DNA of 64,000 nucleotides from a virus: positions 1-64,000 of IMG/VR virus record IMGVR_UViG_3300007735_000798; one strand, given 5' to 3'. The position numbers and the translations under genes were made by a program. Shown piece after piece: positions 16,003 to 59,181 of this stretch. How positions within the stretch are numbered: position 1 is the stretch's first letter; every line of letters begins with the position of its first letter. The notes beneath the pieces are model-generated. The model did not search any database, had not been told where the DNA came from, and worked only from the letters and a program-made list of their open reading frames with translations.

Positions 16003-16013
16003 TTATATTTAAA

Positions 16014-16613: not shown

Positions 16614-16614
16614 A

Positions 16615-38063: not shown

Positions 38064-38065
38064 AA

Positions 38066-38617: not shown

Positions 38618-38621
38618 AAAT

Positions 38622-41600: not shown

Positions 41601-42116
41601 TCTATAATAATCATTATTAACAAAAGATTGTCCAGAAAAAAATTGAAAAGACGAATTATTATTAAATGATATATTTTTAATATATCCAGTAATTTGTTCA
41701 CCAATTAAATTTTTAAAAGGAAATTCTATAGAATAATTTGGGCCAATATTTCCATATATATAAGAATTTAAATTTGTGGAACAATTTTCGGAAGATGCAT
41801 AAAAATATTTATAATAATTATTATTTTTAGGAGAAGAAAGACAAACTATATTATTATTTATAAAATAATTTAAATCACCACTATTTATATTGCCAGATAT
41901 ATTTATATTTTCAGATGGATTATAAGACCATACATGTCTATTATTTATATCATAAATTTTGCCTGTTTTAAAAGTAAATAAATTTAAATTACCATTATCC
42001 CCAGAAAAACCAAAAGATGAAATACCACTTGTATTATCAATATTTATATTTATTAAATATGATAATATATTTTGTGAAGCGATACTTCGATATTTAGTTC
42101 CAGAAACAATATTCAT
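38622..42116 (-). CDS. Tail fibre-like protein with discoidin-type domain and TG repeats
   Basis: A 1,164-residue protein rich in Gly, Asn, Ser and Tyr with very frequent T-G-(Y/F/L/I) steps, which are typical of repetitive beta-structured fibre proteins. Residues about 515-660 look like an F5/8 type C (discoidin) carbohydrate-binding domain: 'STGYLGFEFKNFSAQDSG', 'FKVQGSNDNLNWNEMDTRSG' and 'GLYNYIRFLITSG'. A second similar region near 740-830 ('PDQLIIDASTGGINYTEFY', 'GYQYFRFNFTGAG') may be another copy. It probably binds host surface glycans. It follows the hub-like gene by 3 bases. Confidence 0.7.
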   Translation of the reverse strand: MNIVSGTKYRSIASQNILSYLININIDNTSGISSFGFSGDNGNLNLFTFKTGKIYDINNRHVWSYNPSENINISGNINSGDLNYFINNNIVCLSSPKNNNYYKYFYASSENCSTNLNSYIYGNIGPNYSIEFPFKNLIGEQITGYIKNISFNNNSSFQFFSGQSFVNNDYYRLNNTYNDFISGAQSGKLILDYVLNQDPNIFSTGVFQLNFIDGYFLFNTNFGNISYDFNIPVEKLPFYYLDFVTIFTGIVDDITYNYNYNYNLQTKSPENQDVFISLVNHLGHTGDLYYTGFLSTGLSYGVISGFIHGDDYITGISSGFSVSLFTDYYGNNLSTGFISTEKQLQYPTGNVNYYYNIPIHGGSGLSPARPNTTVFATGYIDNFNEDIFIYKSRDITGAKSGLLTGFWYEFQQTGSGLIFVTESSTIYFTGNSDINYINFNWNTIPYISFDIDNYNSNYNYKIYGITGSGNYTFTSSDSGILEISGVTTQQRTGELINYIFKLNSIDIANNISGDVFGSENTNNLIYVFGEGSLSQWGTNTNTSTGYLGFEFKNFSAQDSGIISHYELNLDKNFSNYKFFPFIFKVQGSNDNLNWNEMDTRSGINFYNSPTNIFQITGTGLYNYIRFLITSGQLLSHINQSDLNNANLGLSINKIYFYEKSISNPISGLYKNFIDNDITGDYFYSSLNTGSEFDYLFSNDYGIELYSVSKLDKQAYPYVEITGGVLGYKTAYPYTGNIITGFYVSFENGYLPDQLIIDASTGGINYTEFYRKTGTINTIESGFISGIRISGVTGYQYFRFNFTGAGLTPVPSIRIQKANLYTIRNNNFFDLNSTTITGYGNVNVSINGSGTGFLTNPTGKVYQTAIFYQTGLLTGLIDSNYSSYTWYFTTISGTGLPNKVFDDYITGQINATGLVYFNTGLLYNEDLLRINNFEFTYVTGAPSSNYEFNNLSGLINILNSGATGGLVDNNLQFVVGVTGYVHTDNSGITLFSYYKSGEDGNTTKLTRYANNLSAINIPHRYFRSGQDLRYSPDIWTGVFSENFNTLSYENTGFYTINIEYYFNNTIIGVIFENNFTGNWVTNITPFSEGKVLNPELTITLPYYSNINFSGFSGSFNIKSGLGYLGYSGLNIFMNKRSFNSLQNTGNFAKYMISGKQFLYTGILEG
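38624..38631 (-). promoter_or_regulatory. Strong Shine-Dalgarno site before 38617
   Basis: AGAAGGAT reading leftward, 6 bases before the ATG. It shows that this tail-block gene uses ordinary ribosome binding, unlike the leaderless-type early genes. Confidence 0.6.
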
Positions 42117-42119
42117 AGT

Positions 42120-44756
42120 TTATAACGCATTTAATGAAGCACGATTAACTCTTGATTCAATCATTCTTAAAATATTATCTGACTCTGTTGGCTGTGGAAG
42201 TGGCGGCCTTGAAGAAAAAACTACTTTTGTTTCAAACCCCTGATCTGAATAAGTAATATCTAATGAACTTAACCCCTCGGAAACAGATAAATTTAAATTA
42301 TCTGCTGGATTTCCCGCAAAAGTATATTCTATTTTTTTTGTTGGTTCTTTATTAACAATAGATTTTGCTAATTGTAATGGAACCTCTCTTGGCCTTGACC
42401 AAAAATCATCGGTTTCTGTAACATTATCATCAAATATATTTACAGTCGCTACGTTTTTATAATCCTTTAAAAATTTTTCATCGTCTAAATTATAATATAT
42501 TTTTTGATTATAATCTATCGGAGGTATAAATGTAATTTGGCGACGAGTAGTTGTAAAAGTTCGTATAGAACCAAAAGAAGGTGCACATAAAGTTACTGGT
42601 GGTTTTCCAAAAAAATTCATTTTTATAGCTTTAGATAAAGTACTATTTAAGCCAGTTCTATCATCTGCGCTTGAACTTTGAAGTGGTTCATTTTCACCAA
42701 GTTCTCTATAAGCAGCTGATGTTGCTTTTTTTCGAGCCTCATCCTCAAAATTTAAACATTTACCTTTATCTATTTGATCATCTAATAAATTACATTTTGG
42801 AAAACCATTTCCACCACCACCTTCAGCATCAGACCATTTTTTTTCTAAAGGATTTAGGCTCGTAGTTATTGTCCAATCAAAAGATTTATATTTCTTCCTA
42901 ATATAACTATACTTAGGAACTATAAATATCTGTGTTCCTGTTTTTATATTAGGAAACATTTGATTTAAGTTATTTTCTGCAATGTCAAGTTTTCTTACTA
43001 CAATATTATCTAATATTTCAGCTTTATCATCTTCATTTAAACCTATTAAGCCAAGAACTTGATTTGGATCATGGCTAAAATTTCCACCACGTTCGTACCA
43101 TTTTTTACCTTTGAATTCGCTACTTGGAGTTTCTATTCTTGTTGCTTCTGGGCTAGCGCTAGTACTTACTGTCATAAAAAATTTCGGAGTACAGATATAT
43201 GATGTAAAAGGTTGAGTACCTTGATAATAATAATATTTTCCATACAAATTTAAAATTTTTTGTTCAAGATCAAACCATGTTTTAGCCAAACCCTCAATTT
43301 CTACTCCAACCCAAAACCAAAATGCTTCTCCTGCAAATTTTTTTGGTTCACCAGCGTTATTTTTACCTACAAATTCTATTTCTAATTCTTTAATACGCTG
43401 TAATTCTGCATTATCTACTAAAAGATCATATATGTTATTTATTTCTTCTTGTTTTAAACGATATAAATAATTTTCTCCACGTTCAGATAGAGCGGCCCCA
43501 TAACTTAATTCTGGTTGTGGAGATCTTAATGTTACCCCCACATTTTTAAATACTTTATAACCAACTTTTTCCTTTAAAGATTCATTTCCCAATACTTCCC
43601 ATATTAAATTATATAAATATATTTCTCTTATTTCTGGACTAAAATATCCTAAAAACGCAGCACTTAAAAACTGATGTTCTTCTCTCCCGCCCCAAAGAGC
43701 AAGTTCTGCTGCTAAAGGATCATCAAAACCTTCTTGAACTTCTACAACCTCACCATTAGTGTTTTCATATAAAGAAACATTTTTATATTCATTTATTTTA
43801 TCTAAAGTTCCATCGTTTCTTAAAAAACGACTAATAGGGACCGCATGCATAAAATCATACGCAGATTCTTCAAACTCTCCAGTTTGTGTTCCCATAGGTT
43901 CTTTTGGTTTTTTTGTATAAGCCATTGCATAATTTATAAAAGTATTATCTAAAGAGCTACTTGCTGTTTTTGCAATCAATCTTGTACTTGTAATATCTGG
44001 TAATTGAAGTTTAATCCCCTCATTTAATACATAAGTCTTAATTTTATTATTTGTAAAGTCCCAATAAAATCCAATACCACAGGCTTCAGCCCAAGATTTT
44101 AAAACAGTTCTTAAAGACCCTTCTGTATTTTTCTTTAATTCTGGTGGGGCTGTAAAATCAACACCCTCTACAATATTATAGTTTTTTAGTATATTTTTTA
44201 AATTTTCTAATGTATAGTATGTTTCTGGAATATCGCATTCTGTTTTTGGAAAAGATTCTTTTCCAAGATAAATAATATTATTTTTTACACCGTAGGCTTC
44301 ATAAACTTTTTTTTGGACTTCTTGATTTTTTAATTTTACTAAAGTAAATGTTCCTATTTTTCGTGAATAAATAGGAACTACATCTTCGTTGTCAAACTCG
44401 ACAATTTTTTTTCTTAAAACTAAATTTCCATCAATTCCAAATTTACCACGCTCCCATTTTTTAACATAATATCTATCTAAAATAACACTATGGTCTTTAA
44501 TTTGTACTTCTAATATTTTATCTTGAAGAGTTTCTTTAATATCATAAGACCATATTATACCATTGAATGTAAAAGAACCAAAAGAAATTTTTATAGGTTC
44601 ATTTAATATCGGTAATGGATTATAATCACCATCTTTACTAATAATATTTAAGGTTAGAACGGATGGCTCCTCAGAATAACCAATTTCTAAATTTAATCCA
44701 TAAATTACCCCGCCAAAATTTGGGCCTTCTATTATTGGTACTTTTGAAATTTCCAT
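42120..44756 (-). CDS. Tail hub / tail-tip protein (hub-like N-terminus)
   Basis: An 878-residue protein. The N-terminal 110 residues ('NFGGVIYGLNLEIGYSEEPS', 'ISFGSFTFNGIIWSYDI', 'LEVQIKDHSVILDRYYV') resemble the beta-barrel of gp27/gpD-type tail hub proteins, and 'GSLRTVLKSWAEACGIGFYWDF' is also seen in hub second domains. The rest is mixed and unidentified. It lies between two fibre-like proteins downstream of the tape measure gene, where hub proteins are normally found. No peptidase or lysozyme motif is recognised. Confidence 0.6.
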   Translation of the reverse strand: MEISKVPIIEGPNFGGVIYGLNLEIGYSEEPSVLTLNIISKDGDYNPLPILNEPIKISFGSFTFNGIIWSYDIKETLQDKILEVQIKDHSVILDRYYVKKWERGKFGIDGNLVLRKKIVEFDNEDVVPIYSRKIGTFTLVKLKNQEVQKKVYEAYGVKNNIIYLGKESFPKTECDIPETYYTLENLKNILKNYNIVEGVDFTAPPELKKNTEGSLRTVLKSWAEACGIGFYWDFTNNKIKTYVLNEGIKLQLPDITSTRLIAKTASSSLDNTFINYAMAYTKKPKEPMGTQTGEFEESAYDFMHAVPISRFLRNDGTLDKINEYKNVSLYENTNGEVVEVQEGFDDPLAAELALWGGREEHQFLSAAFLGYFSPEIREIYLYNLIWEVLGNESLKEKVGYKVFKNVGVTLRSPQPELSYGAALSERGENYLYRLKQEEINNIYDLLVDNAELQRIKELEIEFVGKNNAGEPKKFAGEAFWFWVGVEIEGLAKTWFDLEQKILNLYGKYYYYQGTQPFTSYICTPKFFMTVSTSASPEATRIETPSSEFKGKKWYERGGNFSHDPNQVLGLIGLNEDDKAEILDNIVVRKLDIAENNLNQMFPNIKTGTQIFIVPKYSYIRKKYKSFDWTITTSLNPLEKKWSDAEGGGGNGFPKCNLLDDQIDKGKCLNFEDEARKKATSAAYRELGENEPLQSSSADDRTGLNSTLSKAIKMNFFGKPPVTLCAPSFGSIRTFTTTRRQITFIPPIDYNQKIYYNLDDEKFLKDYKNVATVNIFDDNVTETDDFWSRPREVPLQLAKSIVNKEPTKKIEYTFAGNPADNLNLSVSEGLSSLDITYSDQGFETKVVFSSRPPLPQPTESDNILRMIESRVNRASLNAL

Positions 44757-44795
44757 AACCTTTTACCTTTTATATTATATCCTTTACTGTATAAT

Positions 44796-46700
44796 TTACA
44801 CAAAAAAATCTTCAGTATTATTATAAATTATATAATTATTTTTATTTTCATAAAAATCTCCAGAAAATAAATCAAAGTTACTATTTTCTACATAATTATT
44901 ATTTAATTTTTGTTTAATGCCATTCAAATAAACCTGTGAAGAAGTTTTATTTAAATTTTTTGTTTGTATTTTTAATGTTGATTCATTTCCCGTAATATTG
45001 TTTAAAGTTGGAATTGATTTAATATATACATAATTATTTCCAGAAGGTATATTTAAATTAAAAGTATTATTTCCAGTATAAGTTATTCCAGATATTAATT
45101 TTTGCCCATTAACAAATACAAATTTATTATTAAAATTTTTTCCAGCCAATTGCATTCCAGAATGAATTCCAGTAATAGATAAAAATTCAAAATCACCAGT
45201 AAATCCATCATAAAAAAGATCATCATTTCCATTTATAAGATTATTAACGTAAATTTCATTGCCAGTAATAAAATAGTCATTATTAGTTCTAATAAAAGTA
45301 TCATAACCAATTGTTTCTAAATAATATCCAGAATCTATAATAAGTTGACCATTACAAAATACTAATGTTCCAGAAGTTAAATTATTTTCAGTGGTAAAAT
45401 TATTTTTAATAAAATTAAAATTTAAATTTTTATTATAATTTAAATTTTTATCCTGATAAGATTCATAATATACTTCAACAATATCATTCTGTTTATTTAT
45501 TTCTGATAATAAAGAAATTTCGGAAAAAGATAATGATTCTAAATAATCTGTATCTTTAAAAAAGATACTCGCGCCAGTTTCTAAAAAAACTCCAGTACAA
45601 ATTTCTCCAGTAATATAAACTTGTTTTGATCCAGTAATTTGACCAGTTAAAGGTATTTGGTTATAACCAGTAAAAGAAATTATTCCAGTTTGTGGAAAAT
45701 TATATGAATAATTTATTGTAATTAATCCAGATAATGGTGTTTGACCATAAATTGCAGATGTGATATTACAGTTATTACTATAATATCCTAATAAAATATT
45801 ATTATACCCAGTAACGCCACTATATGAATAGCCAGTTACACCAGTTATATATCCAGTAATTCCAGTAATATTTAAATTAGAACTGTTTGTTAAAAATCCT
45901 GTTATTCCACTTGTTGAAAATCCAGATTCTATAAAATAACCAGTAGTATAACATGTATTTTGTATATATCCAAGTTTACCACTATAAATATGTAATATAC
46001 CGCTTACAATATATTGATTATAAAAAAATGGAATATTTTTAAATATAAAAAATTTATCTACATATCCACTAAAATTAGAACTATTATTAGCCCAATTTAT
46101 ATTTGGATATATCCCACCAAGAAATAATTGGTCAGATTGTTTAAATACATTATTTTTTATATAAAATGTTTCTGTTTCAAATGATAATGTATTATTATTT
46201 AAATTACCCATCGTTAATACATTATTATTGCGATTTATTATTATTAAATTTTTATTCGCTAAAATATTTGAAGCAGTAAAACTAAATACTCCTTCTACAT
46301 TATTCCAATATTTAAAATATAATTTATTAGCATTATTAACTCCAAGACAAAACCCAGAATATGTAGAAAAAGAATTTCCAGTAGCGGAAGAAAGTAAAAT
46401 TTCATCTCCAGTTCTTAATTTTTCATAAGAAAGTAATATCGTATCATTATCAAAAGTATAAGGAGCATTTAATTTCATTATTGTTGAACCATTAAAATAT
46501 CCAGTTCCACTATATTGAAAAAATGTACCAGTAGATCCAGTATTTAAAATACCAGAAAATGAATTTATAGCCCAATTATCTGGAGGTACAGTCTGATTAT
46601 TAATTAGTGATTTATTATAAAAACTAAAAGCAGCTGTAGCACTAGAAATTGGAACCCCAATCTGGTCTAAAAAATACGGCATTCCAGTAAAAAATATCAT
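44796..46700 (-). CDS. Tail fibre-like protein with LamG/concanavalin-type domain
   Basis: A 634-residue protein. Residues about 65-215 have the pattern of a LamG/Laminin_G_3 sugar-binding domain ('GYFNGSTIMKLNAPYTFDND', 'GFCLGVNNANKLYFKYWN', 'FSGYVDKFFIFK'). Residues about 225-370 form a run of (I/V)-T-G-(Y/F) repeats, and the C-terminal part contains several small beta modules. It has a strong AAGGAG ribosome-binding site 10 bases before the ATG, inside the end of the upstream gene. Probably a fibre or tail-tip adhesin. Confidence 0.65.
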   Translation of the reverse strand: MIFFTGMPYFLDQIGVPISSATAAFSFYNKSLINNQTVPPDNWAINSFSGILNTGSTGTFFQYSGTGYFNGSTIMKLNAPYTFDNDTILLSYEKLRTGDEILLSSATGNSFSTYSGFCLGVNNANKLYFKYWNNVEGVFSFTASNILANKNLIIINRNNNVLTMGNLNNNTLSFETETFYIKNNVFKQSDQLFLGGIYPNINWANNSSNFSGYVDKFFIFKNIPFFYNQYIVSGILHIYSGKLGYIQNTCYTTGYFIESGFSTSGITGFLTNSSNLNITGITGYITGVTGYSYSGVTGYNNILLGYYSNNCNITSAIYGQTPLSGLITINYSYNFPQTGIISFTGYNQIPLTGQITGSKQVYITGEICTGVFLETGASIFFKDTDYLESLSFSEISLLSEINKQNDIVEVYYESYQDKNLNYNKNLNFNFIKNNFTTENNLTSGTLVFCNGQLIIDSGYYLETIGYDTFIRTNNDYFITGNEIYVNNLINGNDDLFYDGFTGDFEFLSITGIHSGMQLAGKNFNNKFVFVNGQKLISGITYTGNNTFNLNIPSGNNYVYIKSIPTLNNITGNESTLKIQTKNLNKTSSQVYLNGIKQKLNNNYVENSNFDLFSGDFYENKNNYIIYNNTEDFFV

Positions 46701-48310
46701 ATTAAAATATCTCCTTGATAACTATAATTTTCTGTTATTTCATATATTTTTGAGAAAGCATCTTTTTTAATAGTTCTTTTTTCTAACAAGTAATTTTTAT
46801 TTAATATATTATATACAGTTTTAATTCTTTGTAATTCTGAATTAACTTCGCTAATTGCGTAATCAATATTTTTATCTGGTTTCGCAACAGCAGATATATT
46901 TAACTCTAGTTGCGCGAGATTTGCACAATTTATATCTTGAATATTATGCTCTCTTTTTTGGGTAATAGATGATTTTGGTACATAAATAGATATTGATGGA
47001 TTATATTTTAAACTAGACTTCATTGTAATTACATTATCTGAAAAAGGTTTTCTTTTATCAGACCAAGAAGCTGTATATTTAATTTCGGCACCATATTCAT
47101 TAAAAGTAATTGATTCCGTCAGTGGCTGTGAATAAAGACTACGACCAGTAATTTCTTTTTTATATTCAGTATTAGCCAAATTAAAAGCATTAAAATTACC
47201 ACTATAATAATCTTTTACTAATCCCCATCTCGTATTAACGTCTCCATATTTTCCAAAAATTGTGGCATCTAATTTTACAGTAGTAATATTTTTTATAGGA
47301 TCGGTAGTTAAATCAACATTATAATTATTTGTAATATTAGATAATAAGTCGCTATTATAAGTTAAATTAAAATTTAATTTTTGATTATTGAATTCTTCTT
47401 GTACTGATTGGGTAATAGGATTTGAATTTAATGTTGTACCAAACGTTTTTAATGAAGCCTCGTTTGCTATATTATAAAAATTATAGTCAAAAAATCCTGA
47501 TCTTAAATTATTAGAAGTTGTCCCAGTCACAATATTATTACTTAAAGACCCATCAATTTTAACAGTAATAAGCCCATCTTCAATTCCAGAAGAAATATCT
47601 AAATTATAATCAAGAACTGCATTCGCAGGTGACTCCAAAAAATTTGATTTAACATAAGACCCCTCCCAAGAATATGTACCATCAAATCTGTTTACTGTTT
47701 CCTTAATTGATTGTAATAAAAAATTAGAACCATTACCCGTTTGAGCAAATATTGGCGTAATTTTATTATAATTTCCAGTTCTAGTTTTTACCCAATTTTT
47801 AGCACTTTCAATTGCATTTAAATTTCCAGTTTTTAATCCTTTTGCGGATATACTATGTGTTAAATTAACAATAAACCCATTCTCTTCTGAAAAATCAATA
47901 TTCTCTTCTGGGTCCGTTACTCCATAATATTCGGTAAAAAGACCACTTTCATATATTTCAAAATCAATTGTAAAAGGTAAGATTCCATAAAATAATCCTT
48001 CATCCGTTTTAATTGAATCAATAATCACGTTATTGCCAGAAAATAAATTTTCAGAATTTTCATTAATAACTAAAGTACCATAATTATTACTTAATCTATT
48101 AACAAGTAAATTCAAACCACTATTTAATTCATAAAAAGACAATTGTCCTAAATTTTTTCCAGTAATTTGACCATTTAAAGTCATTTTAGTGACTTGATTC
48201 CATTTAGTATTAAAATTAATAAAATCTTGATTTATAGAAATAAAAGGGGTCGGTGATATACCATCAAATAAATCAGTATCATTATATAATATTTTGATAT
48301 TATTATTCAT
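46697..48310 (-). CDS. Repetitive tail/baseplate protein, paralogue of the next gene upstream
   Basis: A 537-residue, mostly beta protein built of repeated segments. Each repeat has a core like E-(T/S)-V-x3-F-D-G-x-(Y/I)-x-(W/Y), for example 'ETVNRFDGTYSWEGSYV', and further diverged copies at 'TQSVQEEFNNQKLNFNLTY' and 'TESITFNEYGAEIKYTASW'. The same module occurs in the 656-residue protein encoded just upstream. The two genes share one base (stop/start) and are probably co-assembled. The role is inferred from position to be baseplate or distal tail. Confidence 0.6.
   Translation of the reverse strand: MNNNIKILYNDTDLFDGISPTPFISINQDFINFNTKWNQVTKMTLNGQITGKNLGQLSFYELNSGLNLLVNRLSNNYGTLVINENSENLFSGNNVIIDSIKTDEGLFYGILPFTIDFEIYESGLFTEYYGVTDPEENIDFSEENGFIVNLTHSISAKGLKTGNLNAIESAKNWVKTRTGNYNKITPIFAQTGNGSNFLLQSIKETVNRFDGTYSWEGSYVKSNFLESPANAVLDYNLDISSGIEDGLITVKIDGSLSNNIVTGTTSNNLRSGFFDYNFYNIANEASLKTFGTTLNSNPITQSVQEEFNNQKLNFNLTYNSDLLSNITNNYNVDLTTDPIKNITTVKLDATIFGKYGDVNTRWGLVKDYYSGNFNAFNLANTEYKKEITGRSLYSQPLTESITFNEYGAEIKYTASWSDKRKPFSDNVITMKSSLKYNPSISIYVPKSSITQKREHNIQDINCANLAQLELNISAVAKPDKNIDYAISEVNSELQRIKTVYNILNKNYLLEKRTIKKDAFSKIYEITENYSYQGDILI
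46711..46716 (-). promoter_or_regulatory. Shine-Dalgarno site AAGGAG before 46700
   Basis: Exact AAGGAG reading leftward, 10 bases before the ATG of the LamG-domain fibre gene and inside the last codons of the preceding gene. It supports the ATG at 46700 as the start. Confidence 0.65.
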
Positions 48311-50280
48311 TATGAATATTTATAAACCTCCTCATAACCTATTATTTGCTCAATTTCATCAGAAGTAAAATTACAAGATTCTAAATATTTACCAGAATTT
48401 CCACCAAAATAATAATTTCTTAGTTGTGTTTTTAAAGTATCAAAATATAATAAACCATTAAAAATTCCCGTTTGACTTGTTAATCCGATATCTGCTTTAC
48501 CTTCTATGGTAAAAGTACCCTGTTGTTTCAAATCTCTATTATGCACTAATTCATATTTATTATTTGGAATTATATATTTTTTAAAATAAGGTGTTAATTG
48601 CGTACCAGAACTTCCATCATCAGAATAAGTAATATCTAATTTTTTGATATCTCCTAAATCTGTTCTAATAGTTGGATCATCAGTATAAGTATAATTATAA
48701 GTAATTTTCCCATCAAATGGCGTTCTTGTTATTTGCTTATCAATTAAATTTATACCACTAGAAGCTTTTTCCAAAGCCTGTCCAGACCAAAAAGATTTTA
48801 ATCTTGACTCTATTCCTGTTTTTACTACTGCCCAGCCAGTTTCTGCACTTAAATATTTTGCAGAATTAATAATAGAATTTTTTTCTCCAACACCAATTAT
48901 TGAACCTTGTTCATTAACACTCCATATGAATTGCTCATTACGATTTAATGTAGAAGTATAATCAAAAATATAATTTTTAGAAAACTTTTTATCATTATTA
49001 AATGACACATCATATTCAATATTTCCATCAAATTTATTTATACGAACTGTTTTTTCAGCCAAAACAGTATTTAAAGCATCAATTATATTAAATTTATTTT
49101 TATAGGCTTGGAAAAAATTATTACAACGTAAATAGGCCCCAGTAATTTCTTTATTTAAACCAATTACGGCATTTTCATATAAACTTGGAATATTATTTTC
49201 AGCTTTAATTGAACAATTTTCACCTACATTAGCTATACCATTATTATCTAATGAAATATTTAAATTTCTATTTATAGAATAAGGTTCTAAATTATTGTTA
49301 GTAGAATAAGAAAAAGTTTTAGTAAATCCACATTTTCCGTTAATAATATCATAAGATTCATTTCTTAATACTTTATAAGTTCCTTCTTGTCTAGTCGAAT
49401 AATTGTATTCTGATAAATTTATTGGAATAGACTTATTTAATAATTCTACGGCTAAACTTTGAGCCAATGTTATTACATTAATATCTTTATTATCAGCATT
49501 ATATTCAATATCTATAGAATGTGTTCCACCTAATATTTTTGTATTATTATCAAAATCAAAAGTAAAATTTTCACTAAAACTTTTTATAAGATCAAATCTT
49601 TTATTTGATAAATTTAAAATATAATCATTATCAATAGCTAAAGTTGTATTACCCGCAAAACCTAAAAATCCAAGAAAAGTTATTCCAGTTGGTGGGGTCA
49701 TTTCACTACTAGACCTTTGAAATCTTGGCGTATTAGAGGATCCAACCCCTGTAACAGGCGATATTCTCCATTGCGTACTAGACGCATTCCACAAAGCATA
49801 TATATTTGTAGTATCATAATAAATTGGTCTAGAATTCAAAATTTGATTTGTTTTATAAAATTTATATCCCGAAAGATTTGGAGATGCACCAGAGGTATTA
49901 CTAACTATATAATTTGAAGAAATGAATTCTTTTGATACTAAACTTTGTAAATTTGCTGTTGTATAAATTTCAATATCTGCATTATATTTTGTAGAACGTA
50001 CCCAATTCCCTTCGTCAAAAGATAATGATGTAATTTTTCCGATACCAAAGTTTTGACCTTTTATTATTATATTATAAAAATTTTGGGCAATATTTTTAAT
50101 TCTATTTACATCTGTAAAAATATCTTTAACTCCGACCGTGTTAGTTAAATCTAAAACATAACCACGAATAGAAAGTGTTTTTGTCGTTGAGTATTGAAAT
50201 GATTTTTCACCCAAAAAATTATTTTGGTGGTTATATCCAAGCACCTCAATGTTATCTAAAATTAATGTTTCAAAAGACAT
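48310..50280 (-). CDS. Repetitive tail/baseplate protein
   Basis: A 656-residue protein directly after the tape measure gene. The N-terminal part ('LDNIEVLGYNHQNNFLGEKS', 'TKTLSIRGYVLDLTN') looks like a distal tail or baseplate wedge domain. The C-terminal two thirds contain at least three copies of the module shared with the protein at 46697-48310 ('EKTVRINKFDGNIEYDVSF', 'DKQITRTPFDGKITYNYTY', 'NGKCGFTKTFSYS'). It is likely part of the structure joining the tail tube to the fibres. Family not recognised. Confidence 0.6.
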   Translation of the reverse strand: MSFETLILDNIEVLGYNHQNNFLGEKSFQYSTTKTLSIRGYVLDLTNTVGVKDIFTDVNRIKNIAQNFYNIIIKGQNFGIGKITSLSFDEGNWVRSTKYNADIEIYTTANLQSLVSKEFISSNYIVSNTSGASPNLSGYKFYKTNQILNSRPIYYDTTNIYALWNASSTQWRISPVTGVGSSNTPRFQRSSSEMTPPTGITFLGFLGFAGNTTLAIDNDYILNLSNKRFDLIKSFSENFTFDFDNNTKILGGTHSIDIEYNADNKDINVITLAQSLAVELLNKSIPINLSEYNYSTRQEGTYKVLRNESYDIINGKCGFTKTFSYSTNNNLEPYSINRNLNISLDNNGIANVGENCSIKAENNIPSLYENAVIGLNKEITGAYLRCNNFFQAYKNKFNIIDALNTVLAEKTVRINKFDGNIEYDVSFNNDKKFSKNYIFDYTSTLNRNEQFIWSVNEQGSIIGVGEKNSIINSAKYLSAETGWAVVKTGIESRLKSFWSGQALEKASSGINLIDKQITRTPFDGKITYNYTYTDDPTIRTDLGDIKKLDITYSDDGSSGTQLTPYFKKYIIPNNKYELVHNRDLKQQGTFTIEGKADIGLTSQTGIFNGLLYFDTLKTQLRNYYFGGNSGKYLESCNFTSDEIEQIIGYEEVYKYS

Positions 50281-50286
50281 ATCTTA

Positions 50287-53200
50287 TTACGGTTTCGAAG
50301 GCGGAACTTTTATTCCCATTGCACTTTGTATTTCTCTAGTAATTCTTGGAATTTGTTTTTGAATTTCAGCCGCGACAGCTGAAGCTACATCTCCACCACT
50401 TTCGGCATTTACGACAAGATTAATTGGAGCATTTGTTGTATTTGCTATTGATGGTGAATTTATACCTTGATTATTTTGCATATTAGAAGCGTCTGTAGTA
50501 TTTTGTAAACTAGATAAGGAAGTATTAAGATTTTGAATTGCGCTTAGTAATGAAGTCAATGCGCTTGTATTTGTATCTAAACTTGATTCTATTTGCGTAA
50601 AAGACTGTTCTGAGACAGCAAAATTCGGAATATAACCACGACTCATTAATCCCGCAGATTTTTGTCCTATCATTGAGTCATTCAATGCTTTATCTAATCC
50701 GCCATGATCAGCTATTGCAGATGCAAATGTAGGTTGACTACTATTTCTAATATGTGGAAAAGGTTTAGTGCCATAAATAGCTTTATTACCACTAAGGCGT
50801 TCTTCAAGATCCATTACTGAATTTTTGTATGCAAAATTTGGAATAAAGCCACCAGCCAAATTATCAGGTGTGGTCCCAGGTGGTAGTTTACCACTTTTTA
50901 AAAGTTTCTCTTTTAATTTTAGAGTTTGTGCTTCTGCAAATACAGTTCCATTCGTTGAAGATATGAGATCTGGTATCATAGCACCAGTAGTTAGTAGATC
51001 TTTTCCAGCCCCAATACCTAGACTAGTAATCGCCCCATAAACAGCCGCTAATGGATTTTTTCCGATAGCTAGACCACTAGCGGCCCCACCAACAGCAGTT
51101 GAGAATATTTTTTCGAGTTGATCAATATAGGGGTTTTCCGATTTTTTTCCACCATGAAATAAATTATCTAATGCATATTGAGTACTAGCTTCCGCACCAA
51201 TACCAATGGCTCCAGATTTAAATATATTTTTAGCGCTATTCGCTACCGAAGCAAGTTTTGTTGTACTATTAACTTGGAATCTATTCCAAATATCTTCAAA
51301 AAATGGAATAAGGCTATCGAGAGTATCTTCTAATCCAATAGTTCTACCAAATTTCGCATTTTTATTTTCTTCTGCGAAATTTGGAATAAAGCCTTTTGCC
51401 ATACCTATGGCTTTTTGCATATTTCTTGTCAATACGGCTGTTTGACCACTTCCCCCAAAATTATCAACAAGTTTTTCTCCACTATTAATAAAAGCAGGAG
51501 ATCCATTTAAATTTGGAATAAATTGTGGTCGATCTCCAGGTTTTGCCCCTCCAACTCCACGACCGATATCTCGAGATTCTTTATTGTATCCAGGTAAAAA
51601 TCCTTTTGCATTTGATGTCGACTCTACAGATTTATATTTTGCTATTGGTATATAAGGAGTTGGATTTCCAGGCTCCCCTGTTCGTTCTAAAATTTGTTTT
51701 AATATATTGTTTGTAATATTAATTGCTTGTACCGTAGGATCGCTTGAAAGTATTATATCATCTTTATAACTTGTCAGCATCTTTTCTAATGCTTGTTTTT
51801 CTTTGGTGTCGCTTGTAGTTTTTATTTTATCACGAATTTCTTGTAACAGACTTTCATTTGTTACACCAAGCGCTTGCGCTACTTGGATTTTTGCAATGAG
51901 TTCTTCTCCACCCAGCGCTTGTGTTTGTTTTAATGCGGTTAGAAGCTCTGTTTTAAATTGATCAGGTAAATTTTGATTGCCTTGAACCTGTTTTGTCAAT
52001 AATTGTATTTTATTAGTAAGATTTTGAGATAAACCAGCTACAATTTCTTTATAAATTTGACTGTTGGCATCTGGTGTATATCCAGTAAGTTCTTGTAAAG
52101 ATTGAACATATTGTAAAGCATTACGTCCATATTTTGGTAATAATTCTTTTCTAGCTCTTTCTGCTTCTGATCCTTGATATCTATATTCACCAAATTGATT
52201 AGTTCTAAATACCCCTTTAGTATTTAATGCAGCAACTGTATTAGCTGACTTCGCAACTTTATCAAAAGCACTTTCTCCATATTTGGGTGGATTTATAAAT
52301 TCTTCAATGCCACCGCCAAAATTTTGAGCTTGTTTAATTGCATCCACAAGTCTTTTTTGAGTAGTTTCTTGTGCAAGTTTAACTTGTTTTTCTTGTAGCA
52401 ATTTGGCGGCTTCTTCCGCTTTATCATTTCCCTTAGATGTTATACCAATTAGCTCACTTAATTTGTCTTCAAGTGGTTTTCCAAAAAAACCAAGATTATT
52501 CAATAATGGAGTAAATATTTCCGATAAATATTCAGGCTGTAAATTTTTCTTATCTATAATTTCAGAGTTGATTTTTTCTATAAATGCGTCTATAACTGGA
52601 GATTTACCATTTTCTGAAATGTTAAGTCTAGTTCTTAAGTTTTTATCACTGTCTAATTGTTCTTTTGTCGGTAGGACAGCATCATTTATGGCTGTCGCCA
52701 TCTCAACCATTATATCATCAACTGATTGTTCAAAATCAATATTTAATTTTGCAAACTCAGATTTTAGTTCAAAATCTTTTGTCATGCGAGATTCCTGCCC
52801 AGTAAGTTGTGATATAAGTTGTGCTGGATTTGTAAATTGTTCAGTGTACGAAAATTCTCGAGCAAAACTTCTCTTTTTTTGTTCTATAACTATTGATTTT
52901 TTTGCCAAATCAATATTTTTTTGCAATGATTTAATCATTGCTTCATTAGCTTTAGCAGCACTTAATTGTGCATTCTCTGTATCTCTTAAGGCTTGTGCAT
53001 ATTGATTAGAAGATGTTACATTTTGTCTAGTAGCATAATTAGCATCACTAGCAGCCCTCTGAAGAACTATGAGTGTATCGAGATAATCCTGATTAGTTCG
53101 TTTTGCAGCATTTATGGTACTTTCTATAAATTCCGCGCTTCCTACTACACCTCCCAATGAGTCTTCTAATATTGTTTGTAAATCTTTAACTTTTTCTTCT

Positions 53201-56200
53201 AATGGGCGGGCATCTTTTTTATATTCTCCAGTGTCAGGATTTACGCCAGTTAATAACCCTAATTTTTTACCCGTTTCTTCGTCTAATTTTTTTAAAATAG
53301 GCAATGCCTCTTCTCCCTTTTTACCCTGTAAAGCCATTCCAATGAATGTATCTCCAAGAAGTTTTATATTTTTTTCAACATCAGCGGTATCTGTTCCCCT
53401 AAATAAATAGTTATCTCGTCTACTAGCTAATTCACTAACCTTCTCGACATTAGCTCTATTTTCCTCTGCGCGTTGTTTTTCTCCTCTTATTTTTGCCATT
53501 TCTGCTTGTTGCGCAGTTTTTCCTTGTTTGCTTACAATTCTTGCCTGATCTTCTGGTGAAAAATCTGCAAGAGCAGCGGCATATTCATCTTGGGCCTGTT
53601 TTACTTTTTGTGGATTTGGAACGGCTTCACTTAAAGCATTTTTTAAATTTTCGCTAGCAGTTGTTAATCTAGCTGAAGCATCATTAAATTTTGTTAATTC
53701 TTGACTAGCTTTTTCATGTGCGGCAATCGCTTCTGGTAATGTATTATTAAGCTCACTAAAATAATCATTCGCAGCCATAACTCCTCCAGCTATAAGCCCA
53801 ATCGCGCCACCCGCAGCAGCCCCATAAGGACCAAAAGCCAGTCCTAATTGAGCACCAGTAGCTCCTAAACTTAGTGCTTGTCCCGCACCAGTAACAGCTG
53901 CCGCCGTTGCTCGTCCTTGCGGACTTGTCTGTGAAATAGTATTTTTAATAGTGGCCGCAAGAATTGGAGCACCAATTGCTATTGCACTTCCATATGCATC
54001 CGCAGCAGCACCAAATTTTTTTACACCTTTGGCTGAATCACCCAATGCTTGAAGATTTTGTCTATATTGATTTGTTGTTCCACTTAATACATAACTAAGT
54101 CCAACTAATTGAATACTTAACGCACCAAGTGCTGAACTAGTACTTGTAGGCTCTTCTGCATAATTTGGTACAAAACCGCGAGAATACATTCCAATACCTT
54201 TTCGCTCGCGCCCAATAGCATCTTTTAATCCATTTGGTTCATCGCGTGTATTTGTCACAGCAATTGGGTTTCCATTTTTATCAAAATGTGCACGAATTTG
54301 AGAAACTGGAACGCCACGATTAGTAGAAGCAAAATTTGGAATAAAACCTTTCGCCATTCCTCTACTTAAAAATGCTGGAATATCTTTTTCAAAAATTCTA
54401 CCAGGACCATTAGCTTGTTTAATTGGCCAAACAATTTGATCTTTACTTAAAGGTAGTCCATAAACAGAGGCACCACCAGTCTCCATATCTGGAAGTAGTT
54501 CTGAACTTTTTAGTTTATCCCTATTATATCTTACTAACCAAGAACTTTGTTTTCTAGCTGAAGCCCAATTTTTTGCACGACCAATATTTTGTTTATAAGC
54601 TTGCCTATCGCTCATTTTTTCCCCTGGTCGGGAAAGAGCATCCCACATGTAAGTTCCAGAGCCACCAAAATATTCCATAGCAGATTGGTCAGAAGATCTA
54701 TTTCGGAAGGCCCATCCTTTACCGAATTTAGATAACATCATTTTTAATTCTTTGTCATCTACGGCTCTTACGAGTGGTGCTGCAAAATTTGGAATAAAAC
54801 CGCGCGCATAAATTGGAAAATCTTCTTCTCTTTTTAGTTGGCCTTTATTTTCTACATATTTTCTAACCATTTGACTATCAAAAGCGATACCCTTGCCACC
54901 ATGAGTTCTAGATAATCTAAATAAAACTCTTTGAATATCAAATTCTTTTCCTGGAAATTTTTTTAATAATAATTGGTAGACTTTATCATCTACAATTCTT
55001 TTTTTAGGGAAGGTAATTTGTCCATAAGCTCCTTTATAACCTTCTTGTTCTTCATCTGGAGAGGCAAATGCTTGGGCAACTTTTTTATTTTTAGAAGTGC
55101 TCATCATTCGCCAATTAACATCAGTCTCAAAATCTTGAGAAACTTGATCAAAAATAGCATCTTTAATCCCAGTAGGTTCAAAATCATCACCAGGAGTACC
55201 TAACATAGTAAAATCTTTATGTCTATAATCGTCTTTTCTACCAGCTCTTAGATTAAAAATACTTTGTTTATTTAATTTTTTAAAATCTTTTCCAGGAACT
55301 GAAACGCCACGATATAATTTTTCTGTTTGTTCTGATCTGCCTAATTTTTTAATTATAGATAAATATTCTCTTAAAATTTGAGCATCAATTGCTTGGGATT
55401 TAAAATTAGGATTAGTATTAATATCTTTACGTCTTAGTGCTAAATCTTTACCAGTAGCTCTTGGTAAATCTTTAAAGTCAATACCACCCAAAAATTTTGG
55501 TGATGCAAAATTTGGAATAAAACCAAAAGCAGCTCCAGGCCTACGAAGAAACTCCATTTCTTTCATTTTTGTGGCTTGAGATTTAAAACCCATTTTTAAC
55601 GCACGTTCTCCACGAGAACTTCTAGCAAATTGAGTAACTTGATCAAAATCGTTTTTTGTCAAACCATTTTCTTCAAATTGTTTTTGAACATATTTCCAAT
55701 CTCCGATTTTTAATGCATCGACATTAAAAGATCTCCCAAGCCAACCTTCACCCAACGCTCTAGATAAAGCTTCAATTTTAGCACGACCCTTTAGTGGGAA
55801 TCCAGGTTGTTTTAGAAAAGCGTCTAAACCAGAAGTATTAACGCCCAATTTTGTTGCGGCTTTTATATAAGCATTATTCGATAAACCACTACCCTCCGAT
55901 AACTTAGTAGATATATTAGGATTAGTTATTCTACTATTTATAATTTCTATTAATTTTGAATTTGCAAAATTTGGAACAAAACCAGCAGCCATACCTTTTG
56001 ATCTACTAATTCTTGCCATTTCTTCTTTAATTGCTTTTTCTAGTTGTGGTCCTCTTCTTAGATTTTGTCCTTGAAGATTTTTTAAAGCTTCTGTTCTTAA
56101 TGCTTGTGATTGCTTATAACCAGCACCACTTTTTACTTGCTTTACTTCTCCAACTTTAGCTTCTTGTAGTAACTTGCTCATTACATCATTAACTAATTCT

Positions 56201-59181
56201 GGAGAATATTTAGCATCATACATTCCAGGAGCACCATGAAATAGATTTCTTAGTTTAGGGGTTATTCTATTTTGACGAAAATCAATTCCTGCATTTTGAG
56301 AAGTTTTTTGTAAATTTTGTTGAAGTAAAGTAAGTAAACCACCTTCAAAAGCAACGCCAACAGCCCCTTTTGCCGCACCAAAATTTGGAAGGTCTTGTGC
56401 TGATTTTAAGAAATTACCCCCGCCAATTGCTTGACCAAATTGATTTGCCTCACGAACTAATAGGTCACCTAAATTTTTATCTAAATCTGGAAGTTCGCCC
56501 TTAAGAACTTGCTTATTAATTCCAGCTACGGGAATTAAACCTTTATATTGTTGTCCTAAATAACTTGCTGTTGCTGGGGTCATCGAATATCCTTCAGAAA
56601 CCCCTGGATGAATTAGAGAAACAACTTTGCCTTTTAATGCTGGAGAAGTTGTTGTATCTCCAAGATCAATCAAATTTTTTCCTTGCGCAAAATTTGGAAT
56701 AAAACCAGAAGCACGATTTTTAAATTTTGATGCAATTATATTTGCAGCAGAAGCTCGCACTTTAGGATCGTTAAAATTTTTACCTTTTCCAGCAACATTT
56801 CCAAAAAGAGTTTTTCTATCAATATTTCTAACAGAATCAATTAGAATGTTTGATAAAAATAAAGAATCTCCTTTTTCGAGACCAGAATTTTTAAAAACTG
56901 AAGAATTAGCAACGCTAGGATTTTTCTTTAAAATTGCCCCAACACCAGCACGTAAATTTACTATTTTATCACGATTACCATCTCCTGGAACTAAAATTGA
57001 TCCACCACTTCCAGGTGGAATTACTTGATTTCCAAGAATTTGTGACCCCGAAAGTCTTAATATTTTAGATATATAACTAGCTTTATTACCTTCAGATTCG
57101 CTTAATTTTGCATCTCCATATAATGTTCTTCTATTAATACCAAGAAGATTTTTAACTTCTGGATTTACTCTTGCGCTAGATAATACGTTTGGTGCAAAAT
57201 CTATAATATCAGAATCTTCTAAATAAGCTTTTTTAAGACCTAATGATAAAGCAATAGCATTGTCAAAAACTTTACCAGCAGCAAAACTTTTTTGATATTG
57301 AGATATATTTTTTTCATTTGCAAAATTTGGAATATATCCTTTCGCCGCCATTTGTACACCATTTCCATACATTGGAATAACCATTGAATCACCATTACTA
57401 CCAACTCCAGGATATTCAATTTCTTGGTTATTCATTACAAATTTTTTACCACCGATTGTACCTTGCGACATGTGTGGCCGAACAGAAGGAGTTGCACCTA
57501 AAGCAATTGCCTGTGCTTTTTCAATTTGCTTATCCGAAGCAAAATTTGGAATATAACCAGCGGCTTTACCAGTTTTTTTCGTTGGCGCTATTGGTACTCC
57601 GCCAGTAACACGAACTCCAGCACCATAAAACGCTTTAGAAATTTGCGCTGCCACCGCAGCTTGTTTTTGTAATTCAACAGTTTGTTTTTGTAAATTTGCT
57701 AACAAACTATTAGCGGCAGCATTCAAACCCTGCTCACCTTTTAAAGCAAGTTCAAGAAGCTGTGGATTTTTAGATAAAATTTGATTGATACTTTGTTGTA
57801 AACTTTGTTGTTGTACTGCGGCCTGATTTAAACCAAGAAGTTGTTGGACACTTCCAGTTGCAAATTTCCCTAAATCACGAAAAAGTTTAAGTAATACTCC
57901 CCCAATAATTGCTAAACCAGGACCCGCAATAAATTGAGCCAAACCATCTATAATACCTTTACCAAGTGCAGATCCAACTCCAGTTCCTTCAGATTCGTTT
58001 ACCCCACCCAATATTTTATTAGCTCCACCGACAACACGTTCGAATGCTGGACCGAGTAAACGGTTTCCAGCCGTTGCCGCTAATTGTGTGGCATTTTGTT
58101 TTAATGTATTAATTTGTGCGGCATAAGTTTTATTTAGCGCGTCATTTCTTTTAACGGCTTCGTCTGTAGAACTAGCTGCAACATTTAAAGCGCTATTATA
58201 AATAGAATATTCTTTACCTAAATCAGCAAGAGCGGCTTTTAAAATGTTAATTTGAAAAACACCACCAACCTGTTCGGCTACATAAGCTTGTTGTTGCGCT
58301 CCAAGAGTATCATAAACCTTACCTAAATCTTGCAATAATTGAATTGTAGATTTTAATTGTCCAGAACTATCAGTAGTACTTATTCCTAAACTTCCTAAAA
58401 GATCTTGAACCTTACCACGTTCTAAACGTGTAAAAATTGTTTTAAATGAGTTACCAATTACAGCGCCACCGCGTGCAGTAGTTTGCTGTGCTGATGTGAC
58501 AATAGCAATAAGTTCATTAAGTGAAACCCCAGATTGTGCAGCACTACTACCAACACGACTAATAGCTTCTGCAAGATCCGCCGAACTAACTGCGAAAGCA
58601 GCATCAACATTAGCAAATTTATTTACAACTTCACTAGCGGTTACAGCTTGACTCGCAAAAGAATTGACTGCGGCAGTAAGGGCTTCAACACTTTTTGCCG
58701 CATCAAGACCACTTAAACGTGAAAGAATAAGAGCTTCATTAGTACGTTTTAATGTTTCTGCGACACCCAAACCTTGACGAGAAAATTCTGTAGCTGCTTT
58801 GGCTACTTCTTGAAACCCCTGTCCAGTATTTTTAGCAATATTAAACAATTCACCACCAAATTTTTGTAATTGTGAGGCTGAAACATTTAATATAACATTA
58901 ATATCTTGTAAAGATTTTTGTACTTCAATAGTAGATGAAACTAATGCGCTGAAAGCTTTTTCTAAACCATATATAATTCCAGCACTTGCTCCGAATGCGA
59001 TAACACGGGCATTAGATGCATCTAATGATTTTGTAAATTCATTAACTTGCCCAGTAATACGCCCCAAAGGCTGATCGCCTTTAGTTTTTAAGTTAATAGA
59101 ATAAACTTTATTGACAGTTCTTTGAATATCTCTGTCTAATTGCCTAGTATTTCCACCAATATCTAATGTAATAGCAGCCAT
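50287..59181 (-). CDS. Giant tape measure protein with motif-delimited inserted domains
   Basis: A 2,964-residue tail tape measure protein. Residues 1-400 are a TP901/PhageMin_Tail-type core ('IEVQKSLQDINVILNVSASQ', 'GGAVIGNSFKTIFTRL'). Between residues 542 and 1675 eight copies of G-(F/Y)-(I/V)-P-N-(F/Y)-A separate seven segments, one resembling an ADP-ribosyltransferase and one a PD-(D/E)XK nuclease. Residues 1676-2552 hold the helical and hydrophobic tape part ('GPYGAAAGGAIGLIAGGVM', coiled coils). Four more motif copies follow. The end is a small Asn/Ser-rich region. It sets tail length and probably enters the cell on DNA ejection. An AAGGAT site lies 5 bases before the ATG. Confidence 0.93.
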   Translation of the reverse strand: MAAITLDIGGNTRQLDRDIQRTVNKVYSINLKTKGDQPLGRITGQVNEFTKSLDASNARVIAFGASAGIIYGLEKAFSALVSSTIEVQKSLQDINVILNVSASQLQKFGGELFNIAKNTGQGFQEVAKAATEFSRQGLGVAETLKRTNEALILSRLSGLDAAKSVEALTAAVNSFASQAVTASEVVNKFANVDAAFAVSSADLAEAISRVGSSAAQSGVSLNELIAIVTSAQQTTARGGAVIGNSFKTIFTRLERGKVQDLLGSLGISTTDSSGQLKSTIQLLQDLGKVYDTLGAQQQAYVAEQVGGVFQINILKAALADLGKEYSIYNSALNVAASSTDEAVKRNDALNKTYAAQINTLKQNATQLAATAGNRLLGPAFERVVGGANKILGGVNESEGTGVGSALGKGIIDGLAQFIAGPGLAIIGGVLLKLFRDLGKFATGSVQQLLGLNQAAVQQQSLQQSINQILSKNPQLLELALKGEQGLNAAANSLLANLQKQTVELQKQAAVAAQISKAFYGAGVRVTGGVPIAPTKKTGKAAGYIPNFASDKQIEKAQAIALGATPSVRPHMSQGTIGGKKFVMNNQEIEYPGVGSNGDSMVIPMYGNGVQMAAKGYIPNFANEKNISQYQKSFAAGKVFDNAIALSLGLKKAYLEDSDIIDFAPNVLSSARVNPEVKNLLGINRRTLYGDAKLSESEGNKASYISKILRLSGSQILGNQVIPPGSGGSILVPGDGNRDKIVNLRAGVGAILKKNPSVANSSVFKNSGLEKGDSLFLSNILIDSVRNIDRKTLFGNVAGKGKNFNDPKVRASAANIIASKFKNRASGFIPNFAQGKNLIDLGDTTTSPALKGKVVSLIHPGVSEGYSMTPATASYLGQQYKGLIPVAGINKQVLKGELPDLDKNLGDLLVREANQFGQAIGGGNFLKSAQDLPNFGAAKGAVGVAFEGGLLTLLQQNLQKTSQNAGIDFRQNRITPKLRNLFHGAPGMYDAKYSPELVNDVMSKLLQEAKVGEVKQVKSGAGYKQSQALRTEALKNLQGQNLRRGPQLEKAIKEEMARISRSKGMAAGFVPNFANSKLIEIINSRITNPNISTKLSEGSGLSNNAYIKAATKLGVNTSGLDAFLKQPGFPLKGRAKIEALSRALGEGWLGRSFNVDALKIGDWKYVQKQFEENGLTKNDFDQVTQFARSSRGERALKMGFKSQATKMKEMEFLRRPGAAFGFIPNFASPKFLGGIDFKDLPRATGKDLALRRKDINTNPNFKSQAIDAQILREYLSIIKKLGRSEQTEKLYRGVSVPGKDFKKLNKQSIFNLRAGRKDDYRHKDFTMLGTPGDDFEPTGIKDAIFDQVSQDFETDVNWRMMSTSKNKKVAQAFASPDEEQEGYKGAYGQITFPKKRIVDDKVYQLLLKKFPGKEFDIQRVLFRLSRTHGGKGIAFDSQMVRKYVENKGQLKREEDFPIYARGFIPNFAAPLVRAVDDKELKMMLSKFGKGWAFRNRSSDQSAMEYFGGSGTYMWDALSRPGEKMSDRQAYKQNIGRAKNWASARKQSSWLVRYNRDKLKSSELLPDMETGGASVYGLPLSKDQIVWPIKQANGPGRIFEKDIPAFLSRGMAKGFIPNFASTNRGVPVSQIRAHFDKNGNPIAVTNTRDEPNGLKDAIGRERKGIGMYSRGFVPNYAEEPTSTSSALGALSIQLVGLSYVLSGTTNQYRQNLQALGDSAKGVKKFGAAADAYGSAIAIGAPILAATIKNTISQTSPQGRATAAAVTGAGQALSLGATGAQLGLAFGPYGAAAGGAIGLIAGGVMAANDYFSELNNTLPEAIAAHEKASQELTKFNDASARLTTASENLKNALSEAVPNPQKVKQAQDEYAAALADFSPEDQARIVSKQGKTAQQAEMAKIRGEKQRAEENRANVEKVSELASRRDNYLFRGTDTADVEKNIKLLGDTFIGMALQGKKGEEALPILKKLDEETGKKLGLLTGVNPDTGEYKKDARPLEEKVKDLQTILEDSLGGVVGSAEFIESTINAAKRTNQDYLDTLIVLQRAASDANYATRQNVTSSNQYAQALRDTENAQLSAAKANEAMIKSLQKNIDLAKKSIVIEQKKRSFAREFSYTEQFTNPAQLISQLTGQESRMTKDFELKSEFAKLNIDFEQSVDDIMVEMATAINDAVLPTKEQLDSDKNLRTRLNISENGKSPVIDAFIEKINSEIIDKKNLQPEYLSEIFTPLLNNLGFFGKPLEDKLSELIGITSKGNDKAEEAAKLLQEKQVKLAQETTQKRLVDAIKQAQNFGGGIEEFINPPKYGESAFDKVAKSANTVAALNTKGVFRTNQFGEYRYQGSEAERARKELLPKYGRNALQYVQSLQELTGYTPDANSQIYKEIVAGLSQNLTNKIQLLTKQVQGNQNLPDQFKTELLTALKQTQALGGEELIAKIQVAQALGVTNESLLQEIRDKIKTTSDTKEKQALEKMLTSYKDDIILSSDPTVQAINITNNILKQILERTGEPGNPTPYIPIAKYKSVESTSNAKGFLPGYNKESRDIGRGVGGAKPGDRPQFIPNLNGSPAFINSGEKLVDNFGGSGQTAVLTRNMQKAIGMAKGFIPNFAEENKNAKFGRTIGLEDTLDSLIPFFEDIWNRFQVNSTTKLASVANSAKNIFKSGAIGIGAEASTQYALDNLFHGGKKSENPYIDQLEKIFSTAVGGAASGLAIGKNPLAAVYGAITSLGIGAGKDLLTTGAMIPDLISSTNGTVFAEAQTLKLKEKLLKSGKLPPGTTPDNLAGGFIPNFAYKNSVMDLEERLSGNKAIYGTKPFPHIRNSSQPTFASAIADHGGLDKALNDSMIGQKSAGLMSRGYIPNFAVSEQSFTQIESSLDTNTSALTSLLSAIQNLNTSLSSLQNTTDASNMQNNQGINSPSIANTTNAPINLVVNAESGGDVASAVAAEIQKQIPRITREIQSAMGIKVPPSKP
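54349..54780 (-). other. Inserted segment VI of the tape measure protein, possibly ART-like
   Basis: Residues 1468-1611. 'GWAFRNRSS', 'AMEYFGGSGTYMW', 'SSWLVRYNRDKL' and 'RIFEKDIPAF' loosely recall ADP-ribosyltransferase-like folds, but the STS element is absent. It lies between two boundary motifs immediately after the candidate ADP-ribosyltransferase. Confidence 0.25.
54802..55503 (-). other. Candidate ADP-ribosyltransferase domain inside the tape measure protein
   Basis: Residues 1227-1460. The three conserved elements of R-S-E type mono-ADP-ribosyltransferases occur in order: R1291 in 'EKLYRGVSVPG', S1361-T-S1363 in 'WRMMSTSKNKKVAQAFAS', and E1452-E1453 in 'KREEDFPIYAR', next to the following motif. 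'VLFRLSRTHGGKGIAFDS' lies between the last two. It would be the part of the virion able to modify a host target after ejection. No experiment is available; the match is by pattern. Confidence 0.6.
55984..56685 (-). other. Candidate PD-(D/E)XK nuclease-like segment in the tape measure protein
   Basis: Residues 833-1066. E946 ('VAFEGGLLTL'), D967 ('NAGIDFRQN') and D989-A-K991 ('GMYDAKYSPEL') give the E...D...D-x-K order of restriction-type nucleases at reasonable spacing. The first 100 residues of the segment ('SLIHPGVSEGYSMTPATAS') are unassigned. The call rests on four residues and is uncertain. Confidence 0.35.

Follow-up and report, generated by a model that had tools for sequence, protein, structure and literature searches.

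The gene at positions 50287..59181 of the window, by which we mean the whole analyzed stretch of 64,000 nucleotides, raises the question why a single long phage protein carries the same short peptide again and again, and what lies between the copies. The gene (P0001) is on the minus strand, as are all of its parts described below, and encodes 2964 amino acids. The list of open reading frames and the Pfam and PHROG profiles identified the product as a tape measure protein (TMP). PhageMin_Tail matched residues 116-307 with an E-value of 1.9e-27 (score 96.9, cut-off 33.2 bits), and 13 PHROG tape measure families were matched, the best with an E-value of 5.5e-54. Judged by its family, the protein is thus predicted to be the ruler of tail length. 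The N-terminal part, residues 1-541 (57559..59181), is a conserved core that was found in 12 relatives with identities of 47-85%. A search for close relatives with the whole TMP remained empty because the query peptides fell within variable parts of the protein, whereas alignment of the core succeeded. The nearest annotated relative of the core is the TMP of SPbeta (26-27% identity); phages in GenBank yielded distant core matches only, and the motif was absent from them. Related cores were also found on six metagenome-assembled contigs of GTDB, assigned to Flavobacteriales, Neomarinimicrobiota, Halobacteriovorax and Proteobacteria, an assignment to be read with the unreliable binning of phage contigs in mind.

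The original prediction had described eleven clear copies and one degenerate copy of the motif G[FY][IV]PN[FY]A, eight of them between residues 542 and 1675. The motif count confirmed both statements, and all eight copies in that region are strict. GYIPNFA occurs as copies 1, 2 and 11 at residues 542 (57538..57558), 615 (57319..57339) and 2849 (50617..50637). GFIPNFA is found at residues 826 (56686..56706), 1220 (55504..55524), 1461 (54781..54801), 1612 (54328..54348), 2597 (51373..51393) and 2778 (50830..50850), representing copies 3, 5, 6, 7, 9 and 10. Copy 4 is GFVPNFA at residue 1067 (55963..55983) and copy 8 is GFVPNYA at residue 1669 (54157..54177). The degenerate copy, GFLPGYN, is located at residue 2527 (51583..51603), and a weaker resemblance, FIPNLN, near residue 2554. 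The composition of the protein leads to an expectation of 3e-5 copies, compared with the 11 observed, and no copy was found in other reading frames, either in the window or in the remaining part of the record, which has 104,736 bases in total. The intervals had been given as 37 to 877 residues; measured from start to start, the 12 copies are spaced by 57-858 residues.

The motif is widespread in related proteins. Scanning viral contigs for DNA encoding GFIPNFA retrieved at least 120 stretches and led, among the matches listed, to 111 long motif-bearing reading frames, most of which contained several copies. Among the matches listed, nearly all of these frames with a covered 5'-part encoded the TMP core, the first motif copy typically lay near residue 540-560 or 630, and the motif was almost restricted to TMP frames. 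The alignment of the core retrieved at least 586 confirmed relatives, and all 80 that were kept carried the motif, with 1 to 10 copies each. After removal of near-duplicates, the matches listed from the motif scan and the core search formed a set of 152 TMPs with 599 copies under a relaxed pattern, and frequencies in this set are not population estimates. The loci are metagenomic, and some are fragments. Across the set, the conserved unit comprised ten residues, [AK][AS]xG[FY][IV]PN[FY]A, and ended sharply at either side. The codon variety within the motif was compared with that in the rest of the same genes, and the values were closely similar for glycine (0.37 versus 0.34), proline (0.48 versus 0.43), asparagine (0.72 versus 0.73) and alanine (0.38 versus 0.36). 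The substitutions, F/Y and I/V, are conservative at the protein level. Because the motif codons are as varied as codons elsewhere in these genes, conservation acts on the protein and not on the DNA.

Segments were delimited by cutting at the motif, so that the number of motif-flanked domains is partly circular and carries little weight, and segment families were compared by hmmsearch profiles. A common order emerged: the core is followed by a small b module (about 55-100 amino acids), one to six cassettes, a small e module (about 50-77 amino acids) and the tape, with a motif at each transition. A single cassette was present in 67 of 103 TMPs. In the window, five cassettes (S2-S6) lie between the first b module and the e module. 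The b/B module S1 (66 amino acids, 57340..57537) belongs to a cluster of 20 members (C05) that mostly occupy the first position. It is followed by the nuclease-like cassettes S2, of type N3 (204 amino acids, 56707..57318), and S3, of type N1 (234 amino acids, 55984..56685). S4 is a helical cassette of cluster C08 (146 amino acids, 55525..55962) that is 56% identical to its counterpart in L141, S5 is an ART-like cassette recognized by eye from the pattern LYRG ... STS ... EED (234 amino acids, 54802..55503), and S6 belongs to cluster C21 (144 amino acids, 54349..54780). The array ends with the e module S7 (50 amino acids, 54178..54327) from a cluster of 84 members (C00). The longest segment, S8 (851 amino acids, residues 1676-2526, 51604..54156), was rejected as a cassette; its profile matched the tape that forms the C-terminal part of relatives, with 73 matches and a best value of 8e-103. 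Beyond it, the window TMP contains a C-terminal second set of small modules and a hydrophobic segment. This set consists of a second B module of cluster C05 (S9, 63 amino acids, 51394..51582), the hydrophobic segment S10 (174 amino acids, 50851..51372), which lacks relatives in the set, and the E module S11 (64 amino acids, 50638..50829). The E modules form a cluster of 34 members (C03) that occur at positions 1-11 and elsewhere usually represent the last module ahead of the tape. In L193 (9986-13021), the TMP frame ends 31 residues past the e module, giving 1012 amino acids; the tape measure is split here, or the sequence contains an error.

The motif had been proposed to mark the boundaries of cargo. 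This was borne out insofar as the motif copies mark the joints between exchangeable segments; however, the longest interval turned out to be the tape, and three short kinds of segment are recurrent modules. The view that the segments are unrelated does not hold for all of them: S2 (residues 622-825) scored 8.7e-8 against the profile of the S3 family, and S1 and S9 are members of the same family of small modules.

Next, we compared the arrays of related TMPs. The test that had been suggested, whether segments are shuffled, gained and lost, had a positive outcome: segments were gained, lost and swapped among related TMPs, and conservation of the same segments in the same order was not found. At core identities of 74-85% to the window, the arrays were B-N1-e (L125, L128 and L131), b-N3-N1-C21 (L129), B-N4-N1-e (L130) and B-C09-N1-e (L134). 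The comparison with L129 resolved a clean insertion or deletion of two cassettes, S4 and S5, exactly at the motif. L129 has one motif after N1, at residue 1120, which is the counterpart of the copy at 1067 in the window, and the segment directly behind it corresponds to S6, which follows the copy at 1461, and is 89% identical to it from the first residue on. A tree of 108 cores, of which 103 had a complete cassette region, was generated with FastTree without careful search. On this tree, the number of cassettes must have changed at least 27 times among the 103 TMPs, and their content at least 50 times. Two clusters changed at nearly every occurrence, C06 with five changes per six occurrences and C09 with five per five. 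Cassettes can also be more similar than the cores that carry them. L011 and L032 share a cassette with 95% identity at a core identity of 66%, S7 is 90% identical to the e module of L180 at a core identity of 55%, and S3 is 68% identical to its counterpart in L024, compared with 35% for the core, of which only a part is available in L024. In 18 of 435 pairs, the cassette identity exceeded the core identity by at least 15 points. Together, these results demonstrate that cassettes are transferred between lineages and that the motif is the joint.

The most common cassette is N1 with 77 members, followed by N2 with 33 and N3/N4 with seven. They have the signature G..F(E/D), D, (D/E)xK and K in common, which S3 contains as G..FE-D-(D/E)xK-K and S2 as G..F(D/E)-D-DAK-K. 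In the N1 family, the glycine, the glutamate, the acidic residue two positions ahead of the lysine and that lysine itself were retained in 77 of 77 members, the middle aspartate in 76 (the remaining one has a glutamate), and the last lysine in 71, while the mean column identity of the alignment was 16%. The same residues are retained in N2 and N3/N4, with E or D as the first acid in N3/N4. The order and kind of these residues, E/D ... D ... (D/E)xK and K, are those of the catalytic residues of PD-(D/E)xK nucleases, and this arrangement is present in N1-N4.

Structure prediction had been suggested for each segment. The model of S3, which included the motif on either side of it, was confident (pLDDT 87.5) and was the only reliable one for a cassette; a 1149-amino-acid model of the whole cassette array, based on 11 alignment rows, reached a pLDDT of 43 and was discarded. 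In the S3 model, the motifs and their surroundings had pLDDT values of about 40-70 and appeared disordered. Where they were modelled, the joints are thus predicted to be disordered linkers that bear the ten-residue motif. Foldseek retrieved no match to the S3 model at E<=0.001 in PDB or BFVD. Therefore, N1 is called only nuclease-like, on the basis of its residues, with the fold unconfirmed, and it was not placed in the PD-(D/E)xK superfamily. Matches of N1 to primases of Klebsiella phages (E 0.2) as well as to lectins and hydrogenases (E 0.07-0.5) were dismissed as chance hits.

Several further segments look like host-directed enzymes, and for most of them the enzyme identity was derived from residue patterns. 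Matches above the Pfam cut-offs were obtained for GNAT in cassettes of L141 and L049 and for a cytidylyltransferase-related region in L051. A 799-amino-acid cassette of L027 (4352-6748) matched HATPase, the histidine-kinase/HSP90-type ATPase, just below the cut-off, and P-loop and ParB-like matches in cassettes of relatives were weak. By eye, HAD-like cassettes were recognized from the residue pattern DWDGT, TxRP and DD, and kinase-like cassettes from GxG, K, HGxN and DPG; profiles of both kinds had no match among PDB sequences. ART-like patterns were seen by eye in S5, L041 and L089, and the resulting alignment of three rows was too poor for use; no relatives of S5 were found in the collections searched. 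HExxH metallopeptidase-like cassettes, again recognized from the residue pattern only, are rare and occur in L150 and L158. In L158 (14081-15043), a HELFH segment is followed by a HAD-like segment, and the two are joined by a degenerate motif, RFLPNFA, while in L150 a full motif divides the HExxH and HAD-like segments into two cassettes. In the window TMP itself, no GNAT, ART-, kinase- or HExxH-type domain was confirmed by profile.

From the pattern of exchange and the residues of the cassettes, we consider it rather probable that these TMPs are both the tail ruler and a modular carrier of host-directed enzymes. The cassette array between the core (residues 1-541) and the tape (from residue 1676) would ride in the tail and be brought into the cell together with the TMP, before the phage DNA. 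The cassettes would then act early in infection, in DNA cleavage, protein modification or counter-defence. It counts against the carrier model that a folded domain of 25 kDa may not fit into the tail tube beside the tape, which would force the cassettes to travel unfolded. The motif-flanked, hydrophobic, tape-like segments near the C-terminus also count against it, as they are not obvious cargo. With regard to the motif, our first choice, held tentatively at somewhat less than an even chance, is a docking or threading handle, i.e., a short peptide, one per joint, that would be bound by a tail-assembly chaperone or by the tube. Any domain between two copies would thereby stay in the array and pass through the tail. 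We prefer the handle because the motif is strict and hydrophobic, occurs once per joint, surrounds both small modules and is present in single-cassette TMPs, and because it also surrounds the C-terminal hydrophobic segments, where release of cargo would serve no evident purpose.

The main rival, which we regard as rather unlikely and place behind the docking handle, is that the motif is the recognition site of a protease. The TMP would then be a true polyprotein, from which the cassettes are cut free once the tail is assembled or when they enter the cell. Nearly all cassettes have a motif copy at either end, situated in predicted disordered linkers, which is what release requires. Metallopeptidase-like cassettes do occur in L150 and L158, and autoprocessing has been proposed for polyvalent proteins (PMC5512222). 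However, cutting at every copy would split the core from the tape and could thus occur only after assembly, and the motif is found next to the small modules and the hydrophobic tape segments as well. Furthermore, no protease was recognized among the scanned genes of the window and the record, many of which have no assignment, and the HExxH cassette is rare.

It is unlikely, and more so than a protease site, that the cassettes are structural. They would then fold at the tail end or around the tip and aid adsorption or assembly, and the enzyme-like residues would be relics. Exchangeable domains are indeed frequent in tail proteins, and Foldseek found no neighbor of the N1 model. However, relics would not keep catalytic-type residues invariant at a mean column identity of about 16%, and the scores for GNAT and the cytidylyltransferase-related region are above curated cut-offs. 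Lastly, the motif could be a recombination site at the level of DNA, by which cassettes spread, and its peptide would be functionless. This would fit the coincidence of module boundaries with the motif and the frequent exchange, but it was rejected as highly improbable on account of the codon diversity at the motif and the substitutions that are conservative in the protein. A shared joint sequence may aid exchange as a side effect.

In the most far-reaching reading, the tape measure would be a plug-in cartridge: a dedicated peptide of ten residues at every joint, acting as a docking, unfolding or cleavage signal, would allow any enzyme domain to be loaded, threaded through the tail and freed in the host. 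We see this as possible, though short of an even chance. The same tentative degree of belief applies to what this reading would add, namely a large family of tailed phages, a mode of delivery unlike described systems, and a fast turnover of cargo in an arms race.

TMPs with embedded lytic transglycosylases or peptidases are known, and YomI of SPbeta is annotated as both. The TMPs described here resemble them in having an enzyme domain within the tape measure. They differ in that the YomI-type domains degrade the wall, whereas most cassettes here are nuclease-like or of putative protein-modifying type, and are arrayed, exchanged and bounded by the motif. Phages and conjugative elements also encode polyvalent proteins, which are very long, combine numerous enzyme domains related to conflict in different ways, among them ART, GNAT, kinase, metallopeptidase and ParB-like domains, and are thought to enter the cell with the DNA (Iyer et al. 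2017, PMC5512222). The TMPs here share with them the combination of several unrelated, exchangeable domains in one long protein. In contrast to polyvalent proteins, the carrier is a TMP, which PMC5512222 does not mention, and each joint has one strict motif. A survey of domain mosaicism in phages flagged TMPs as mosaic by sequence and confirmed no genuine recent case (PMC10684548); here, insertions, losses and transfers were resolved to the residue. In a study of the SNIPE defence, the TMP of lambda, gpH, was located at the inner membrane while the genome was being injected (PMC13190303). A TMP that reaches the inner membrane makes TMP-borne delivery feasible, but gpH was not described there with effector cassettes, and the nuclease in that study is the host's. 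The string GFIPNFA was not found in the literature searched, which leaves out most subscription papers. Within the same scope, the titles and abstracts listed contained no description of arrays of effectors, toxins or enzymes in TMPs, or of their shuffling or processing. This silence is weak evidence of novelty. Overall, we see a substantial chance that the TMPs represent a distinct delivery system.

If the carrier model is true, many environmental phages would have a tail ruler that is an effector-delivery protein, which would help to explain the large size and variability of such TMPs. It would also raise the question how folded domains pass across the tail tube. At the joints, module exchange in TMPs is resolved to single residues, whereas the survey devoted to such exchange (PMC10684548) was unable to confirm it in TMPs, and the motif can serve as a sequence tag for the bulk discovery of candidate injected phage enzymes.

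The remainder of the record contains further genes of interest. Downstream of the TMP gene, at 35475-50280, is a run of genes for large proteins of 537-1164 amino acids. Among the proteins of this run that were scanned, none matched a Pfam or PHROG profile meaningfully, and the proteins presumably form the tail tip or baseplate. A replication set (1345-3879, 5276-6265, 7275-8168, 8165-9637, 20952-22046 and 24925-26904) includes a PolIII alpha-like polymerase, a PD-(D/E)xK (PDDEXK_1) nuclease, a Toprim primase, a DnaB helicase, a RecA-like protein and a class II ribonucleotide reductase. In the rest of the record, the gene for the large terminase subunit adjoins one for an ERCC4-type nuclease (L002, 16921-19742), and genes for tRNA-Trp and tRNA-Lys are present (L003, 18014-18161). 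A cluster of sugar genes at 11485-18242 of the window encodes a DegT/DnrJ/EryC1 aminotransferase (12278-13459), glycosyltransferases of families 1, 2 and 9, a CAP59-type mannosyltransferase and a DUF5672 protein, and a further glycosyltransferase is encoded at 31565-33493. A possible function of these sugar genes is glycosylation of the virion or the DNA.
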